Positions 5,757 to 23,039 of a DNA stretch of 64,000 bases are shown in pieces. The stretch lies in contig WION01000040.1 of the NCBI GenBank assembly GCA_015039365.1, forward strand, positions 186,001 through 250,000. The letters are read 5' to 3'. Source of the DNA: Amanita rubescens (Eukaryota; Basidiomycota; Agaricomycetes; Agaricales; Amanitaceae). A program made the translations under genes and the position numbers. The first letter of the stretch is position 1; the number at the start of each line of letters is the position of its first letter. The notes beneath the pieces were generated by a model. The model worked only from the letters and a program-made list of their open reading frames with translations, ran no database searches and was not told where the DNA came from.

Positions 5757-8700
5757 CTACAGCGGTGTATAACAGCGAACCCAATCAACACCTATCTTGG
5801 ACTGAGAAAAGTCAACAGTGGCAAATCCAAAGCGAGAAATGGCGAGGGTATTGAAAGGTGGACGCAATCCAGCCTCTTGTGGCACCCACATAAGATGGTT
5901 TTGCCCCTGAGAAGAGATAATCCAATTTGTGTCTGCCAGATTCCAAGCGAAGTGCTCATAACCAAGCAGAGAATCGTCATGTGAGCCAGACACTTGAACC
6001 CGTGTGCCGTCGCTCGAAAATGCAACCAAATTGACAAAGCTGGTAACCCACACCCGCACAGAGTTGTCGTCTGAGCCAGACACAATCCATGTGCCGTCGC
6101 TCGAAAACGCGACTGAATTGACCGACCTGGTGTGGCCCTTCAGCTCCTTCACCTCCACACCTGTCGATGCATCCCACACCCGCACAGAGTTGTCAACTGA
6201 GCCAGACGCGATCCACATGCCATCGCTCGAAAATGCGACTGAACTGACCGAGTCAGTGTGGCCCTTCAGCTCCTTCAGCTCCACACCTGTTAATGCATCC
6301 CACAACCTCACAGAGTTGTCATATGAGCCAGACACAATCTGCATGTCATCGCTTGAAAATGCGACCGAAAAGACTGAGTCAGCATGGCCATCCAGCTTCT
6401 TCAGCTCCACACCTGTTGTCGCATCCCACACCCGCACAGAGTCATCATCCGAGCCAGACACAATCTGTATGTCATCACTCGAAAACATGACCGAACAGAC
6501 CAAGCTGGTGTGGCCCTTCAGCTCCTTCAACTCGGCGCCTGTCGACACATCCCACACCCGCACAGATTCATCATATGAGCCAGACACAATCCGCATGCCA
6601 TCATTCGAAAATGCAACCGAACTGACCAAGCTGGTGTGGCCATTCAGCTCCTGCAACTCTACGCCTGTTGATGCATCCCACACGCGCACAGAGTTGTCAG
6701 ATGAGCCAGACACAATCCGTGTGCCATCCCTTGAAAATGCGACCGATCTGACCGAGTCAGTGTGGCCCTTCAGCTCCTTCAGCTCCACACCCGTTAATGC
6801 ATCCCACACCCGCACAGAGTTGTCAGACGAGCCAGACACAATCCGGGTGCCATCGCTCGAAAAAGCGACCGAAAAGACCGAGTCAGTGTGTCCCTTCAGC
6901 TCCTTCAGCTCTGCACTTGTTGATGCAACCCACACCCGCACAGATTCATCATATGAGCCAGACACAATCCGCGTGCCATCGCTCGAAAATGCAACTGAAC
7001 TGACCGAGTCAGTGTGGCCTTTCAGCTCCTTCAGCTCCACACCTGTCAATGCATCCCACACCCGCACAGAGTTGTCAACTGAGCCAGACACAATCCGTGT
7101 GCCATCACTCGAAAACACAACCGATCTGACTGAGTCGGTGTGGCCCTTCAGCTCCTTCAGCTCTGCACCTGTTGACGCATCCCACACCCGCACAGAGTTG
7201 TCGACCGAGCCAGACACAATCCGCATGCCATCACTGGAAAACACGACCGAAAAGACCGAATTGGTGTGGAGCTGAAGGAGCTCCACACCTGTTGATGCAT
7301 CCCACACCCGCATAGATTCATCATCCGAGCCAGACGCAATCCGCATGCCATCGCTCGAAAATGCGACCGATCTGACCAAGTCGGTGTGACCCTTCAGCTC
7401 CATCAGCTCCACGCCTGTCGACACATCCCACACCCGCACAGAGTTGTCATATGAGCCGGACACAATCCATGTGCCATTGCTTGAAAACGCGACTGAACTG
7501 ATCGGCCTGGTGTGGCCCTTCAGCTCCTTCAGCTCCACACCTGTCGACGCATCCCACACCCGCACAGATTCATCATACGAGCCAGACACAATCCGTGTGC
7601 CATCGTGCGAAAACGCGACTGAACTGACCGAGTCAGTGTGGCCCTCCAGGTCCTTCAGCTCCACACCTGTTGATGCATCCCATACCCGCACAGAGTTATC
7701 AGACGAGCCAGACACAATCCGCGTGCCATCGCTCGAAAATGCAACAGCCAAGATTCCTCCCCCAGCTGATACTGTCATCAATGGGAAATCAATACTACTG
7801 CCTTTGGTATGCGTAAAGACAGGGATGCGAGTGAATTGGTTTTTCCAGTTCCGGGAGAGACTGGTTTCCTGCGACCACGTTGCCAACGCCGAGATGTACA
7901 GGTGCGGTGTCGATTCGGCAGCCGGGCTCCCTGCGAAATAGGTAGCAAAATTGGCAGCTTCACCAATGTCGCGTGCCAATTCCGAATAGCTGTTTCCGCA
8001 CTGACCAACACCATTAGTTGTTGCAGTGCAGCTCAAACCTTACAATCCGTACCTCCAACACCCACTGACGTGCACATTGCAACATTGGGGTACACTGATT
8101 GCATAACCCAAGCAAGTTCATACCCTCGATCCAGAACAAGACACGAATTTGGAGGAACTCCGAAATGCAGCAACGAAGATTATCGGTGTTGATTGACTGG
8201 GGCGACGGCAAGTGGTGAGCCCAGTGGTGAGATGAGTACCTAAGAACAGCAGTGATGTTCTGGTTAACCCGTTCAGCCAGCGTAACAGCATTGTTGCGGT
8301 CGAACAGGAAGGATGAAGTTATATCGCCCATATTGAATTGCAAACTGGACTTCATGACACTAAAGCAAGATTCACCGAGAAGATTGTGGTGGGCTGGTTC
8401 GTTACATGAAAACAGAAAGTCCTTCTCACCAAAACGGAAGTCTGACCGGGCTTGATCAAAAATGAAGTCGGGGAAAGAGGCATGGTACCAAAAAACTCGA
8501 TCGTCTTGGGTATAGAGTACGGCATGGAGATCGTCCAGAATGGCCTTTGCGGCTTCATTATCACTGTCTGCGACGAGCGCAGCAACGGTGGAGGTGGATG
8601 TGCGTTCAGCCGTACATAGGAAGGTATAAAGGATACGCAGTCGGCGAGTCAAGAGCTTTCCTTTGAACTTTGAAAAGGCGTCGCGCATAATTTGCTGGTA

Positions 8701-10636
8701 TAATTCGTCAATTAAGGATGTAGTATCACTCGCGGAAGCCGGTTCGTACGATTTGGAAAGGAGGTCGTCAAGCATCTCGGTCTGCTCTGCGGTGGAAATC
8801 GAGTCACCCGGGGTCAAGTACCTCACCACCGTCGCAGCGTAGATGAACAGACCACCCGCCTGTTGTCCAATCTTGTCCAGCTTTGGATTGCCTGCAAGCT
8901 TCGGTAGCTTGATGTCCAAGTACGTCTTGATGTCTGACTTTGCCTCTTCGATCGGCACATCTTGGAGACGACAAACAGCCTCGGACGCGAAGGACTTGCA
9001 GAGTGTAACAATTTTAGGATCTGATCGACTCGTCACGAGAAACTTCAAGCCTCTGAGATCGTCTTCGTTGATTGCTGTGAGTAGGTCGCGTAGAAACGCT
9101 GACCCTCCGTTGTCCTTAATCTCGTCGAGAGCATCGATGATAATGAGGTAGGGTGGTTGTTCAGGGGGGCGTGTGGCTTCGGACAGTTGCCAAGGTCCAA
9201 GAAGAAGACCCGTCATCTGGCGGGAGACGTCGTGATTGACTGTGTCGAATTTGTCGGCAACATGCAATGCATTTGCATACGATTTGCATTTACGAGCAAG
9301 CTGGTAGGCGATAGTGGGAAGGATACGGGTCCGGGTTTGTGTTTCTTGGAATTGTCGCGAGCAGAGAAAGTTGCCGCCCAAGACGGTGTGCTTGTTACCC
9401 TTACCATCGACCTCGAATTGTTTGGCTATGGTATACGCAATGGTGGTTTTGCCGGAGCCAGCTTGACCGGTCAACCAGAAGACACGCGGGCTGGCTGGTG
9501 AGCGATCGTTAGCCCATTTGGTAATATCCTCCAATATCTTGACACGCGTTCCGTCCGTGCACGCTTCACGCTTCAGGCCCTGCTCTTCAAGAACAGTTCT
9601 GTGGTCAGCCTTCTCGGAGGGACGCAGACGTTCCAGGGCCGCTTTCTGTTCAATCAATCAGTGTCGGTCACAAGCCAGGAAAGCGAGATACTTGCCTTGA
9701 TGTCGTCGTGTATCATGTTCGCCGTTTCCTGGATGCTGTTCGCCATTTGTAACTGGGAACGAACAATGAGCAAATACATAAGCTTGAATGAATATATGAG
9801 TATGTACCTGGAAGGACGTCGTAGCACCATGTACGCGTTGAAAAATTTGCCTGATCGTCTTCTCGTATTCATCATGGTCTAGCGTCTGTATGGCCAGCGA
9901 TTTACGGGCAAGAACCTCTAACTTATTCATTTCTTCCTGAAGGATCCTAGGTAGTGGCATGTTCATCAAGGTATACTATTTGGCGTAGGGGGGACGACGT
10001 ACTGTTTGAGTTTCTCCATCTCCTGTTCGGCTGTCATCGGAATACCGATAGCTACAGTCCTCTCCACAGCCAGGAGTATGTTCGCCGTTTCTTCGAGACG
10101 TTGTGCAAGTTCGTCCTGGTTGTCTTCGACCGCCTGAGATAATAGTCAGCCTGTGCTCGAGATATAGAGACGATGACCCACATCTTTTATCTCAATGATC
10201 ACCTTGGCAATGGAGAATGCCATCACAACCGGATTAGCACTGAAACAGGCTGGCAGCTTCTTGAGAAGCGCTTGCGCAAACCGCGAAGCTACCCCAAGAC
10301 CCTGTTTCGCAGTCGCCTTCCAATCCGAGACCGGCGTTTGAGAATCGGTCAACGCTGGCTCTTCAGTACGAGTCGAAATTGAGCCGGTTTCGCGGTCGTG
10401 CTCTTCAAGATGTGTCCGAAGTCAATTCTCAGACGTGAGGACTGACCAATATGCTTACTTGAAGCCGTGGGCTCTACACTTCCTGCATCGTTTCCTGGGA
10501 CAGGATCGTGAGCGCCAGATGCAGAAGAGACAGGAACCAGAGTTGCATTCGATGAGCTCGCCGAGATGTCGGCTAGTTTGGGTCGCTTAGTCCAACCCCG
10601 AAAGGGTTTTAAGAACGTCGTTAGTCTGTCGGGCAT
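5757..10636 (-). CDS. NACHT-WD40 STAND protein (fungal NLR-like)
   Basis: This is a signal-transducing ATPase with a C-terminal WD40 sensor, the architecture of fungal incompatibility and non-self-recognition NLR-like proteins. The N-terminus starts with MPDRLTTFLKPFRGWTKRPK (ATG at 10636-10634) and is spread over several short exons (about 10.64-9.70 kb) encoding a helical region. The NACHT exon runs from 9645 to 8053, with Walker A GQAGSGKTT (DNA about 9468-9442) and Walker B YLIIIDALDEI. A 52-nt intron (8001-8052) separates it from the WD40 exon (8000-5757). The intron before the NACHT exon (9646-9695) has a GC donor (AAG|GCAAGT). Thirteen near-identical 42-residue WD repeats are followed by one partial and one degenerate repeat and a unique tail. 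The N-terminal exon borders near 10.35-10.45 kb are not fully resolved. The domain order is complete and I see no disabling change in the large exons. The effector domain at the N-terminus is not a recognised HET, HeLo or patatin domain. Confidence 0.85.
5980..7740 (-). repeat. Tandem 126-bp WD40 repeat block (13 full units plus partial units)
   Basis: Each 126-bp unit encodes 42 residues of the form ELKGHTDSVxSVAFSSDG followed by TRIVSGSxDxSVRVWDASTGV. Units are far more alike than WD40 repeats normally are within one propeller. Differences concentrate in the two residues after GHT, the residue before SVAF/SVVF, and the x positions of SxDxS (S, Y, V or D, then N, E or D). Repeat 4 (about 7230-7350) is two residues shorter and carries a small inversion at 7264-7288. 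Confidence 0.85.
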
Positions 10637-17964: not shown

Positions 17965-20900
17965 ATGGCACCAACAATTGGTGCACCTTCTTTAAGTAGG
18001 CTAATTTGTGTGACTAGGCATTGCTAATCCTTGCCAACTGACACATATCAGATGCAGATGAAACACATGTTCAAATGCTCAGGGAACACTACCTATGCCC
18101 TCACTTTTGCATCCTTGTCATTGGGAGGGCTAATGCAGGCAAGACAACCATCCTTGAGAAGGTTTGTGGGGTAGCAAAGGGGACAAATCCCATCATATAT
18201 GACAAGGATGGTAAGTCAGCCTGAGTTTTGTGCTTCCTTTGAGTCTTGACTGTTGAGTTCAATTTTGCAGGTAATCAGGCTTCAACAGTCTGAGATTCAT
18301 TTGATGCCAGCAGTTGAGGTGAGTCAGATAATGATGTATGGATGTACCCATTCAAATGCAATGATGCCAACAGAGAGGCCTGCATGATATTGAGCATCAA
18401 ATTACATACCCTGGAAGTAACTTTATCTTCCATGACTCTCGGGGCTTTGAATCTCAGGGTTCAACTGAGGAATTAGAGATTGCTTGGAAGTTCATTGAAA
18501 AGAAGTCTGCAGAAATTGAGCTGAAAAATCAGCTGCATGCAATTTGGTATCTTGCTTTATCCCTTTACAGTACTACTACTATGTAGCTGGCTGACCTGGC
18601 TTCCTGTAGGTACTGTATACCCATGGACAGCCCTCGTCCCATTTTACCAGCAGAACTTGAATTCTTCAATAAAGGAACAGGAAAAGGTAATTCATATCTC
18701 ATCTTGTAACCTGTTGGTTTTGAAGAGATTTTTTATTTCTACCTCCTTTCCATTGGACAACTTGCCATACTAGTACTGACTAATGAATATTTCCTTTACA
18801 GTTCCTTTGGTGGTTATATTCACTAAATTTGGTGGCCAAATAACCAGTGAATTTGTCAACTTGACTGATGCAAAGGATAAAGATAAGTGGGAGAGAGCCA
18901 GGGAAATTGCTGAAATCACTTTTCAGAAAGTCTATCTTCCTATGGTTTTCAATGCCAAATATCCTCCTGATGCATATGTGCAATTGGAAGGTGAAAATGA
19001 TAAGGATTTCCTCCTCGGAAAATGGGAGTAATATTGTTCATAGACATGGATTTACCAGAGAAGAATTGTGCCCAATTGACTCAGAAAACTGCTGATGCAA
19101 TAGATGATGACAGCATGCATCAGCTATTTGTCTCAACACAGATGAATAATCTTGACCTTTGTGTTAAATCTGCACTTCAGTGAGTGTCACATTCAAAATA
19201 TCACTTATTAAGCAATGACATTGTTTAGATATGTTCTAAAATTTGAAAATATTGACATGGGATGATGTCATTCTCATAGTTTTTTCAAAATTTCCACATT
19301 TCTGGGTATGCACTTTTTCAAACCACACATCAGCATAGGAAAATTTAAATGGTAATAGGTGGACAGGGAGGTAGGTGACCTTCATATGGAATGATAAATA
19401 CCTGCAAAAGTTCATCAGGAGGTAAGTAACATCATTGGCTTTCACATGTAAAACAACATTCAATAGTCATGCTTCAGATGGCCTGATAAAGACCTAAGTG
19501 AAACAGTGGTTAGTTTTCAATCACCATATTCATGGATGGCCAGATCTGATAATGATATTGATGTCAGTGGGTAAGTGACACTGAACTAGCATAGGATCTG
19601 ATATATTGTCTCATGAACAACTAGTTTGTGAGTAATCCTTTCTTTTGTGATCAGCAGTGTTGTCCCATAATCTACTAGGAAGTGAGTGACATCCCTCAAT
19701 TCTGATTTTTTTTGATAAATTATCCCATGGTGCATTGTGTGACCAATAGCAAGTGAGTTAATCTATCATTATAAGCAGACTTATTGCAATTCATCCCTTG
19801 ACAGGGAGTGAGTAATTCAACACTGTTTCACACCACATCTGACATGCTTAAAGAAAGTAAGTGAGATTGATAATGCAGCTTATTGGACATGACTCAATGA
19901 ACAAAGAAAGTTGGTGATGTACTATGATCTGAAAGAGTCTCAACAAATTTCATTGGATTAATAACAGGAAGTGAGTGATATTTCCTTCCAGTTTGCTTAT
20001 AAACATTACATCTTGTCCCAATACAACAGGCAGTAAATGTGTCTCCTTTTCAAAGCCTCTTCACAAGCTAATACAAAACAAACAGGATGTATGTGACCCC
20101 TTTAACTTTGACATATGTATGAACTAATTATATGAAATACTATGGCAAAAGAGAGTCAGTGGCATTGTTTCTTTTCTCCAAATCATGATGCTAATTCCAC
20201 TCTAAAGGAAGTGAGTGATGCTAGCCACACTGCTACAGGACAATTCAGACACATTCTTTTGCTTTACAGATTGTGAGTGATATTGGAATGTTTTGTTAAA
20301 AGCAATGAAATCACATCTGCTCAAATGAACACAGAAGGTTAGCAGCATGTCATACTGGTATAAGGGATTAAAATGTGACCTTATTAAATTGCCAACAGCA
20401 TGTGAGTAACATCACAAATATTTCTGAAAACCTGTTCAATTATGACTGGCAGGATGTGAGCAACATTGAAGATTCTGTGGAAGGCAGTTTCATCATCATT
20501 GCATCTTTTGCTATAACCAACAGGGAGTGAGACATTGCACATTTTGTGAAAAGGCAGTCTCATCACATCTTTAGCCAGTTGTCAGTGACATTGCACATTT
20601 CTACTATGAAAGGCAATCTCATTCCTATGACCAACAGGAAGTGAGTGACATTCCTACATTTTGTGAAAGGCAGTTCTCATATCTATGACCAACAGGAAGT
20701 GAGTGACATTGCACATTTTGTGAAAAGTAGTCTCATTCCTGTGACCAACAGCCTGTGAGTGACATTCCAAATTTTGTGAAAGGCACTCCCATTCCTATGA
20801 CCAACAGAAAGTGAGTAACAGTGCACATTTTGGTACTAGTCTCATTCCTATGACCAACAGCAAGTGAGTGACATTGCCCATTTTGTGAAAGGCAATCTCA

Positions 20901-23039
20901 TTCCTATGACCAACAGTATGTGAGTGACATTGCACATTTTGTGAAAGGCAGTCTAATTTCTATGGCCCACAGCGAGTGAGTGAAATTGCACATTTTGTGA
21001 AAGGCAGTCTCATTTCTATGGCCCACAGGTTGTGAGTGACATTGCACATTTTGTGAAAGGCAGTCTCATTCCTATGGCCCACAGCGAGTGAGTGACATTG
21101 CACATTTTGTGAAAGGCTAATTTCTATGGCACACAGCAAGTGAGTGACATTGCACATTTTGTAAAATGTAGTTTTATTCCTATGACCAACAGGAAGTGAG
21201 TGACATTGCACATTTTGTGAAAGGCTAATTTCTATGGCCCACAGCTTGTGAGTGACATTGCAATTCTGTGAAAGGCAGTCTAATTTCTATGGCCCACAGC
21301 GAGTGAGTGACATTGCACATTTTGTGAAAGGCAGTCTAATTTCTATGGCCCACAGCGAGTGAGTGACATTGCACATTTTGTGAAAGGCAGTCTAATTTAT
21401 ATGGCCCATAGTTTGTGAGTGACATTGCACATTTTGTGAGGGGCAGTCTAATTTATATGGCCCACAGCAAGTGAGTGACATTGCACATTTTGTGAAAGGC
21501 AGTCTAATTTCTATGGCCCACAGCGAGTGAGTGACATTGCACATTTTGTGAAAAGCAGTCTAATTTCTATGGCCCACAGCGAGTGAGTGACATTGCACAT
21601 TTTGTGAAAAGCAGTCTAATTTCTATGGCCCACAGCTTGTGAGTGACATTGCACATTTTGTGAAAGGCAGTCTAATTTCTATGGCCCACAGCAAGTGAGT
21701 GACATTGCACATTTTGTGAAAGGCAGTCTAATTTCTATGGCCCACAGGAAGTGAGTGACATTGCACATTTTGTGAAAAGCAGTCTAATTTCTATGGCCCA
21801 CAGGATGTGAGTGACATTGCACATTTTGTGAAAGGCAGTCTAATTTCTATGGCCCATGGCAGTTTGTGAGTGACATTGCACATTTTGTGAAAGGCAGTCT
21901 CATCACACCACTCTCCTTTGGCCAACAGTTTGCCAGTGTGAGTGACATCACAAAATTTCTGACCTGCATTCTCAGTATTCCTCAATTTGTTTGACACATC
22001 ATTACATCCTATGTATATCAGAAAGTGAGCATGTTGCCATATCTTTCCATTTGAATTATTATCATCATAGATTGTATGATTTCATTTCATTCATGTGGCC
22101 ATTCCTCTCACTCATACTGATTTCCAGGTGAGTACCACATCTGATGATATATTGGATGTTTTACTCTATGTCATAACCAGGGTGAACTTTTCTCCATGTT
22201 TCCAAGGTTCAAGAGAAAGACTGCCTTCAATGCAGCCCAGGTATTTCTTCTTCTTCTTTCTTGGGTAGTACACAACTCATGTCATTGCAACAAGCCCACT
22301 GATTGCCAGGTCTTAACTTGTAAATTACTCTTTTTCATTTAGTACTGCATTTATGCTTCAACTTTCAAGCAATTACTATCATTGCCAAGCTATCCTTTTG
22401 GATCAATCAGCCATTTGTGCCATCAATCACTGAAGCCTTGAATCAATACAAACAAAAAGGCTATGCTCAGAAGCTGAAGGCTGACATTACACTTCACTCC
22501 ATGCACTCTGATCATCAAGATTTGTTTATATTACTGTATAGACAGACAGAGCCAGCTCACATTGATGGTAGGTACTACTAAATTGTCTAGTCATGCCTAC
22601 ATCTTCTTCATCACAATTCCCAGAGCATAAGCAGCCTGTCAAACCCACTGCCAGTGAAGAGCCTGCCTCCTCATCACTGCCACCATCATCTCCCCGTGCC
22701 ACCACTATGTCCAAAACTGGGTCCTCGAAATGTAAAGTCACGTCTCCTGGTCCTGGGACATATACCACACCTGCCATCCCCTCCGCACAACTTGAAGAAC
22801 TGGTCAATAAAGTCCTCTCCCCACTGTCTGACCCTCTTGACCGCCATGCCGAGAAGTTTGCTCTCAGTGCAAGTCGGGCCCTATTTTCGCTTATGCAGGA
22901 ATGCATAGACATCATTCTTGATGTTGTCGACAAGAAAATGGCCGCGCTTGAGGACGAGGACGAGGGTGACTCGGAAGTCGAGCCGAGAAAACCTGTGGGA
23001 TCAAAGGGGTTGAAGGGGAAAGAGAAGGAGAGTAAGTGA
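17965..23039 (+). CDS. AIG1-like P-loop G-domain protein with micro-exon array
   Basis: A G-domain GTPase of a large Agaricomycete family. Exons are 17965-17995, 18052-18210, 18271-18318, 18374-18546, 18610-18686, 18802-18990 and 19044-19179. Motifs are G1 GRANAGKTT, G3 HDSRGFE, G4-like FTKFGG (the usual Asp is Gly) and G5-like FVSTQMNNLDLC. After 19179 come about 3 kb of tandem introns with 3-nt micro-exons. Then follow exons 22181-22240 (GELFSMFPRFKRKTAFNAAQ), 22310-22319 (VLT) and 22370 onward (ITIIAKLSFWINQPF), all in one phase. The gene may stop at 22581. Alternatively a 56-nt intron (22568-22623) adds a Ser/Pro-rich tail ending at 23039. Exon 3 needs a one-base shift near 18279 to connect GNQ with the frame reading LQQSEIHLMPAVERG, so the locus may be damaged or the base an error. 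The whole gene up to 22690 is CpG-poor. Cellular role unknown. Confidence 0.72.
19180..22180 (+). repeat. Tandem intron array with 3-nt micro-exons
   Basis: From donor GTGAGT at 19180 to the acceptor before 22181, the sequence resolves into consecutive blocks. Each starts with GTGAGT, GTAAGT or a related donor and ends in AG. Between blocks lie 43 exact triplets (first GAG 19419-19421, last ATT 22071-22073), one 6-nt unit (20575-20580), one 9-nt unit (21929-21937) and one 42-nt open exon (19467-19508, reading SCFRWPDKDLSETV). Block lengths in the diverged 5' half are 46-68 nt, the same as ordinary introns in this window. Triplet counts: GAA 7, CGA 6, CAA 5, AAA 4, TTT 3, GAT 3, CTT 2, GGA 2, ATT 2, nine others once; no stop codon. 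The first 240 bases (19180-19418) have several possible parsings. Whether the triplets are retained in mRNA is inference. Confidence 0.8.
20527..21937 (+). repeat. Homogenised part of the array, 56-bp unit
   Basis: The common unit is a 53-nt block (starts GTGAGTGACATTGCACATTT, contains GTCTAAT like a CTNAY branch site, ends GGCCCACAG) plus a 3-nt triplet. Exact 56-bp spacing holds for successive donors at 21303, 21359, 21415, 21471, 21527, 21583, 21639, 21695, 21751 and 21807. Units before about 20900 have CCAACAG instead of CCCACAG. Small internal deletions occur (for example the blocks starting at 21088 and 21196). Confidence 0.9.

Follow-up and report, generated by a model that had tools for sequence, protein, structure and literature searches.

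One-codon exons in tandem: a fungal G-domain gene family whose variable stretch appears to be spelled one amino acid per exon

An array of probable three-nucleotide exons in Amanita rubescens

In a 64,000-nt stretch of the 75.7-Mb genome of Amanita rubescens (assembly GCA_015039365.1, contig WION01000040.1, positions 186,001–250,000), hereafter the window, a G-domain gene is interrupted by dozens of short introns, most of them separated by exactly three bases. This one-codon-exon observation was confirmed in the window, and its interpretation as a series of single-codon exons is supported by sequence for the gene family to which the window copy belongs. We consider it very probable that the array is coding sequence cut into phase-0 single-codon exons, spliced singly, and that the gene encodes a G-domain protein carrying a hypervariable insert. 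Spelling the variable protein stretch one amino acid per exon appears to be a novel form of gene construction, and possibly of gene diversification.

The array was modelled as a chain of splice sites with loose scores for donor, acceptor, branch motif and intron length. The model resolved positions 19306–22180 into 48 introns and 47 internal exons, of which 43 are exactly 3 nt long and none of these 3-nt exons is a stop. The other internal exons measure 12 nt (19359–19370), 42 nt (19467–19508; the counterpart is 30 nt in each of the other 14 models) and 9 nt (21929–21937), and the last one (22071–22127) was read by eye as the codon ATT with the first part of a 107-nt intron behind it. The introns have GT donors, AG acceptors and the short size usual in fungi, the branch site being scored only as a loose motif. 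When strict splice sites were required, 3-nt exons in the window formed a run of up to 22, compared with 0 or 1 at the twelve other exon lengths from 0 to 12. An earlier reading of the letters alone (the sequence-only reading) had reported about 45 blocks, with a spacing of exactly 3 nt in 43 cases and exceptions of 6 and 9 nt. Its placement of the array at 19180–22180 has to be corrected, 19229–19305 being an ordinary 77-nt exon and the array starting at about 19359. Its remark that the 5′ half no longer aligns was borne out by a mean mutual identity of 51% among the 15 introns after the TGG exon versus 85% among the later ones (shuffled-intron baseline 48%, from loci L025–L027 only). The gene is laid out as follows, with the basis of each feature in brackets.

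17965–17995, plus strand: exon 1, gene start, MAPTIGAPSL.. (sequence reading)
18052–18210, plus strand: exon 2, P-loop GRANAGKTT (alignment of 17 loci)
18271–18990, plus strand: exons 3–6 with their introns, G domain with DSRGFE and TKF motifs, small indels relative to relatives (reading, alignment)
19044–19179, plus strand: exon 7, MDLPEKNC..CVKSALQ, ends in phase 2 (reading, alignment)
19229–19305, plus strand: exon 8, HVLK..FSKFPHFW in relatives, where it ends in phase 0; overlooked in the sequence-only reading (alignment, model)
19359–19370, plus strand: 12-nt exon, VDRE (splice-chain model)
19419–19421, plus strand: single-codon exon GAG (splice-chain model)
19467–19508, plus strand: counterpart of the relatives' 30-nt exon MANEQLSETQ, altered in the window (alignment, model)
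19568–20401, plus strand: preamble of 15 single-codon exons, TGG TTT GAA CAA GGA AAA AAA GAA GCA GAT AGA GAA ATT AAG CAT, with mutually dissimilar introns (model, intron comparison)
20453–21865, plus strand: variable part of 26 single-codon exons, GAT GGA CCA GAA GAA CCT AAA CAA TAT CGA ... GAT TTT, with mostly homogenised introns of about 53 nt (model)
21929–21937, plus strand: 9-nt exon TTTGCCAGT (junction measurement, model)
22022–22024, plus strand: single-codon exon AAA (model)
22071–22073, plus strand: single-codon exon ATT, as in paralogues, then the 107-nt intron with a zero-length AG/GT at 22127/22128 (model, by eye)
22181–22240, plus strand: ordinary exon after the array, GELFSMFPRFKRKTAFNAAQ (model)
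22295–22319, plus strand: 25-nt exon PTDCQVLT.., inferred from PTDCQVLVS of the relative's protein P0122 (paralogues, model)
22370–22567, plus strand: exon ..KLSFWINQPF.. (model)
22624–23039, plus strand: final exon of the window copy, through TGA (reading, model)

Because at least three ordinary exons of the window copy (exon 3, exon 8 and the counterpart of the 30-nt exon) carry small indels relative to the other loci, this copy is probably damaged (perhaps a pseudogene) or carries assembly errors. The evidence given below supports the earlier proposal of single-codon exons in a G-domain gene at the level of the family; for this broken-looking copy itself, they are predicted. Two minor features were seen at its 3′ end. 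The zero-length exon TTTCCAG/GTGAGT (22120–22133) joins an acceptor straight to a donor, as in recursive splicing. The last exon encodes a long tail rich in Ser, Pro and charged residues (..KGKEKESK), the model of locus L011 has a short tail ending SFSCC, and 3′ ends differ within the family.

The layout recurs throughout a gene family

A search for the same triplet layout in more copies found it in 17/17 loci, namely the window and 16 regions fetched by their match to its repeat, and in 3/3 loci fetched by the G domain. The codons TTT GAA CAA GGA AAA, the first five, are exact in 14 of the 17. Complete chain models were obtained for 15 of these loci and are free of stops in 11, where each gene has 40–87 exons of 3 nt; the median intron is 62 nt (53 nt in the window). 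In L010 and L011, the splice-chain model gives 86/87 and 87/88 internal exons of 3 nt. Of the two loci lacking a model, L013 runs to the end of its contig, and in L009 the last array intron holds 1.35 kb of foreign DNA, which we think is why this locus has no model.

The register was also measured in other ways. With strict sites, seven further regions gave longest chains of 8–71 at exon length 3 and of at most 2 at the other lengths from 0 to 12, so that length 3 is the only exon length giving long chains in 8/8 regions tested. Chance was judged an unlikely source of the register, since 200 dinucleotide shuffles per region gave chains of at most 2 at length 3 in all eight regions (at most 1 in the window). 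Measured without any assumption about frame, 615 of the 640 junctions between recognisable introns in the 17 loci are 3 nt; the 25 off-length junctions fall in L020 (17), L012 (5) and L018 (1), the window and L009 each contributing one 9-nt exon. A genome scan for three successive AG-NNN-GTRAGT units returned 2,500 and 2,144 matches on the two strands and 0 and 0 for the reversed pattern; the sum of 4,644 counts matches that overlap and may draw on two haplotypes, and stands for thousands of sites, not for an exact count.

Distant paralogues have the same layout. In L025 and L026, 49/55 and 51/54 exons are 3 nt long, and the introns of their longest chains share only 53–54% mutual identity, versus 48% when shuffled. 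L027 holds a run of 32 one-codon exons starting WFEQGKNQ, with introns that are on average 58% identical, and a second run that opens with TGA.

Three details of individual copies were also seen. The 12-nt exon VDRE is followed by a GC donor in place of GT in L011, and L010 has the same sequence. Many odd junctions in L012 and L020 resemble the loss of one A or T from a pair, by decay or sequencing error. The insert of L009, the copy nearest to the window, occupies 1,350 bases (8230–9579), has terminal inverted repeats (TAGTGTTGCCG...CGGCAACACTA), is flanked by two copies of CTCTCACT and is absent from the window; we take it to resemble a hAT-type non-autonomous element.

The triplets behave as codons

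Because exon 8 of L011 has phase 0 at its end, each later 3-nt exon of this locus is one whole codon; the L011 model comprises 101 exons with an open coding sequence of 1,521 nt. A phase-2 reading of the triplets, continued from exon 7, was rejected, because exon 8 and the open reading frames (ORFs) of relatives fix phase 0. Exon 8 is followed by exons of 12, 3 and 30 nt, then by 15 single-codon preamble exons and finally by the variable codons. The preamble consensus WFEQGKKETDREIKY (W F E Q G K K E T D R E I K Y) was compared across 13 loci, without L018 and L023 and without L009 and L013, which have no model; five of the 13 match it exactly, and 1–5 codons vary in the rest. Over these 13 loci, the triplets are 95.7% identical and the intron interiors 89.3%, the triplet being better conserved than the intron at 11 of 14 units and less so at three.

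No stop codon occurs among the 615 three-nt exons of the 17 loci, compared with 44.5 expected from first-base and last-two-base frequencies, nor among the 436 that remain after four near-identical copies are dropped (27.9 expected). This count supersedes an earlier one of 0/638, for which 11 arrays had been chosen as stop-free models; the present loci were not so chosen. Likewise, the first triplet is a stop at none of the 100 genome-scan sites listed, all on C1 to C3 (8.3 expected). In eight loci, the third base is A or T in 299/317 triplets and no triplet ends in AG, which may reflect avoidance of a competing acceptor.

Open reading frames of relatives run through the array

A protein search identified gap-free ORFs through the preamble block on 1.4–1.9-kb Joint Genome Institute (JGI) contigs of relatives. 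P0001 (386 aa; contig of 1,446 bp) spans 25 intron positions of L011, 24 of them gap-free, and reads WFEKGKKESDREIEY at the block; P0005 (1,903 bp) is gap-free at 34/34 and reads WFEHGKKDTDKQIVY, and P0008 (longest contig 1,494 bp) is gap-free at 24/24 and reads WFAEAKKQADGEREY. The prediction from the genome at that block is W/F/E/Q/G/K/K/E/T/D/R/E/I/K/Y. As their introns are missing, we infer that these contigs are cDNA of the relatives. P0122 (2,135 bp) reads ..FCLKICDELFSMFG..PTDCQVLVS and matches the array end of other loci; since its PTDCQVLVS shows a 25-nt exon, a 10-nt exon after the array in the L011 model was rejected. Unlike these gap-free ORFs, the translations of P0127 and P0168 run through introns. 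Among farther relatives, the block is contiguous in P0012, P0009 and P0148 and gapped in P0011, P0051 and P0067, and it reads WFDKADEAANFERNY in P0009 and P0012. Removal of the array as one big intron, the outcome that the sequence-only reading had set against itself, does not fit the gap-free ORFs.

The predicted protein is conserved on either side of the variable insert in the seven loci aligned. Its motifs GRANAGKTT, DSxGFE and TKFD are taken here as P-loop GTPase-like. The best agreement with PF01926 (MMR_HSR1) was that of P0002, the public A. rubescens model (E 0.00046; 20.7 bits, under the cut-off of 21.9), with P0009, P0012 and P0001 weaker; searches of Pfam, PDB sequences and Rfam gave no match above threshold, and some homologues carry a precomputed PF01926 annotation. 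P0002 stops at VDRVVDGQ, right where the array begins.

Our reading of these data is as follows. Each AG-NNN-GT triplet would form, in phase 0, an entire exon of a single codon. The introns on either side would be ordinary spliceosomal ones, short (mostly about 46–70 nt) and probably recognised across the intron. The introns would be removed singly, the upstream exon growing by one codon per step, so that the mRNA would gain one amino acid per unit; a 3-nt exon would make the splicing machinery at its acceptor overlap with that at the following donor, so removal is probably stepwise. The product would be a P-loop GTPase-like protein in which 15 conserved residues are followed by a hypervariable insert (about 24–71 residues, often charged or Gly-rich) and a conserved C-terminal part.

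Codons diverge between near-identical introns

The variable part consists of 24–71 codons between introns that are often near-identical. In unit pairs from one array whose introns are more than 95% identical, the triplets share just 35–67% nucleotide identity (ten loci tested); in L021, the values are 99.9% for introns versus 46% for triplets. Between L015 and L016, the 1,698 flanking bases show no substitution, yet two codons differ; between L015 and L017, with 1.6% difference in the 5′ flank, 19 of the 31 aligned codons differ. A single 65-bp unit, together with two small intron changes, distinguishes L010 from L011. The flanks of an array can also be unequally diverged, with 8.3% divergence upstream and 2.3% downstream between L012 and L020, and 2.0% upstream and 0.0% downstream between L016 and L018.

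These sequences fit gain and loss of units and exchange through the arrays. Units of intron plus codon would be gained or lost in steps that keep the frame (65 bp in the case seen), and near-identical introns would enable arrays to recombine in the same family member or across members. Sharing of codon words among ten arrays is weak: there are 256 shared words of two codons (shuffled mean 253), 78 of three (52; maximum of 300 shuffles 77), 12 of four (5.8; maximum 16) and one of five (0.5), and equal neighbouring codons exceed chance (p<0.05) in only one of the ten. Codon diversity may be caused or upheld by, for example, selection on the protein, perhaps in recognition.

A further step, which we put forward tentatively and with belief just short of the halfway mark, is that the array of one-codon exons is a diversification cassette. 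The identical introns would serve as frame-safe homology for recombination, exchange, gain or loss of units would yield a new in-frame protein, and the hypervariable residues would turn over far faster than the introns. Isoforms could be added if codons were included selectively.

Counter-evidence and alternative explanations

Several points weigh against coding one-codon exons or against exchange between arrays. For A. rubescens, splicing is predicted from the genomic sequence together with the putative cDNA ORFs of relatives; P0001 leaves the expected sequence after DGG, and a protein search with the variable region returned P0122 only. L012, L018 and L020 hold 23 junctions of 0, 1, 2 or 4 nt, so that these are decayed or mis-sequenced copies or the register is not absolute. 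Stop triplets occur in L025, L026 and one chain of L027, with odd exons too in L025 and L026, and these two loci may be damaged. The copies on C667, C79 and C239 and those on C769 and C228 may be alleles, in which case the loci are not all independent; the overlapping matches counted in the genome scan belong here as well. Unequal flanks pass the threshold in just 8 of 66 locus pairs, five of which involve L024, a locus whose 3′ part is diverged from all others.

The strongest alternative concerns the origin of the codons and is compatible with their being coding one-codon exons. A mutational generator at the junction, such as imprecise joining when a unit is duplicated, may write new triplets, with selection removing only stops and wrong lengths. 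The junctions do vary where the introns do not, and lengths of 0, 1, 2 and 4 nt are seen in L012 and L020 combined. However, many odd junctions of L020 have the appearance of an AA or TT pair short of one base, which sequencing error explains too, and even so the 3-nt exons of L020 contain no stop; moreover, the pure one-unit insertion between L010 and L011 points to ordinary unit duplication. We regard such a generator as unlikely, if worth keeping in view.

Repeated insertion of introner-like elements, codon by codon, into an older coding exon would make the identical introns recent and the codons ancestral. Such elements are known in fungi (PMC4457414, in part), and the most frequent array intron has the same sequence in both members of each of the eight locus pairs compared. 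Insertion, however, need not hit every third base; the preamble shows the same register with diverged introns; and the difference between L015 and L017 at 19 of 31 codons indicates that the codons are not simply ancestral. This origin is improbable.

Under a third explanation, the array is a minisatellite within one long intron, the 3-nt spacing being a by-product of the repeat and the triplets non-coding. Tandem Repeats Finder does call the 3′ part of the array a tandem repeat, and removal of the whole array keeps the frame where all exons are multiples of three. A register carried by similarity between units alone would not be expected at 53–54% intron identity, where it nevertheless persists (L025, L026), and it is likewise kept among the unrelated introns of the preamble, in agreement with the earlier claim that a plain minisatellite would not have kept such a register. 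The lack of stops in 615 triplets, the better conservation of preamble codons than of introns at 11 of 14 units and the gap-free ORFs of relatives all speak against this explanation, to which we give very little credence. Equally remote is a dead gene family whose translation stops before the array, as the end of P0002 and the broken-looking window copy might suggest, given open frames in 11 of 15 modelled arrays, conservation of the predicted protein on both sides of the variable part and ORFs of relatives that run on through the block.

Comparison with known systems

The micro-exon genes (MEG) of schistosomes have 10–20 short exons, mostly of 15 bp (minimum 6 bp in the text and 3 bp in the abstract), and introns of 0.1–5 kb (PMC10526429, in part). 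Like the array genes, they string together a large number of very short exons, generally of a length divisible by three, which automatic annotation handles poorly; the array genes differ in having 40–87 exons of 3 nt with short introns, and the MEG passages of that paper mention no one-codon arrays with homogenised introns. The array gene, fungal and with a G domain, shares with these schistosome genes very short exons in multiples of three, and not 15-bp exons, 10–20 in number, with long introns. Exons this small do splice, as reported in part of the respective papers for a 3-bp exon of Drosophila homothorax (PMC7392893) and, in 2026 and with Sequence Read Archive support, for a 1-nt exon of Fusarium CYP621A (PMC12940212), but one such exon per gene is described there, not dozens in a row. 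A 2024 paper states, in the part bearing on this, that functional microexons were undescribed in filamentous fungi (PMC11121469). Searches of open-licence PMC papers, most of them on micro-exons, small exons or intron gain, listed no gene with dozens of consecutive one-codon exons, as the sequence-only reading had supposed.

Recursive splicing involves zero-length exons at which AG meets GT. There, an intron is removed in stepwise segments (PMC6110457, in part), whereas each step in the array would leave one codon in the mRNA. The units of the array stand in tandem at three-base spacing, unlike introner-like elements, which are scattered insertions. The array does share with these elements near-identical introns at many places (PMC4457414, in part). 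Such elements insert into otherwise conserved coding sequence that is intron-free in homologues; in the array, the codons themselves differ between close paralogues.

In the fungal non-self recognition genes het-d and het-e, the coding unit is a WD repeat of about 42 residues. Units of such NLR WD-repeat genes are exchanged within and between members, and a few residues per repeat are under diversifying selection (PMC1805685, in part). Exchange of repeat units in a family would be common to both systems; the unit is a coding WD repeat in one, while in the other, where the gene has a G domain, it comprises one intron and one codon. By analogy, we propose that the array family may diversify by repeat units as those genes do.

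If our reading is correct, about 100 introns per gene are spliced, between exons too small for exon definition, accurately enough for a protein, and a gene can be divided so finely that each amino acid has its own exon, as would be the case at thousands of places in this one genome. Introns could then be neutral homology for reshuffling codons with the frame kept, and standard annotation would truncate this gene family, as with P0002. The near-identical introns beside widely differing codons pose a testable puzzle, selection versus a targeted mutational process.

A neighbouring gene pair with WD repeats

About 10 kb from the array, on the minus strand of the window (5757–9657), an ORF with a P-loop GQAGSGKTT, NACHT-like by eye, lies beside a second ORF, which encodes some 13 WD repeats of high mutual similarity. 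The corresponding tandem repeat spans 6047–7742 with a period of 126 and 13.5 copies, and the pair resembles a fungal NLR whose WD repeats are conserved internally.

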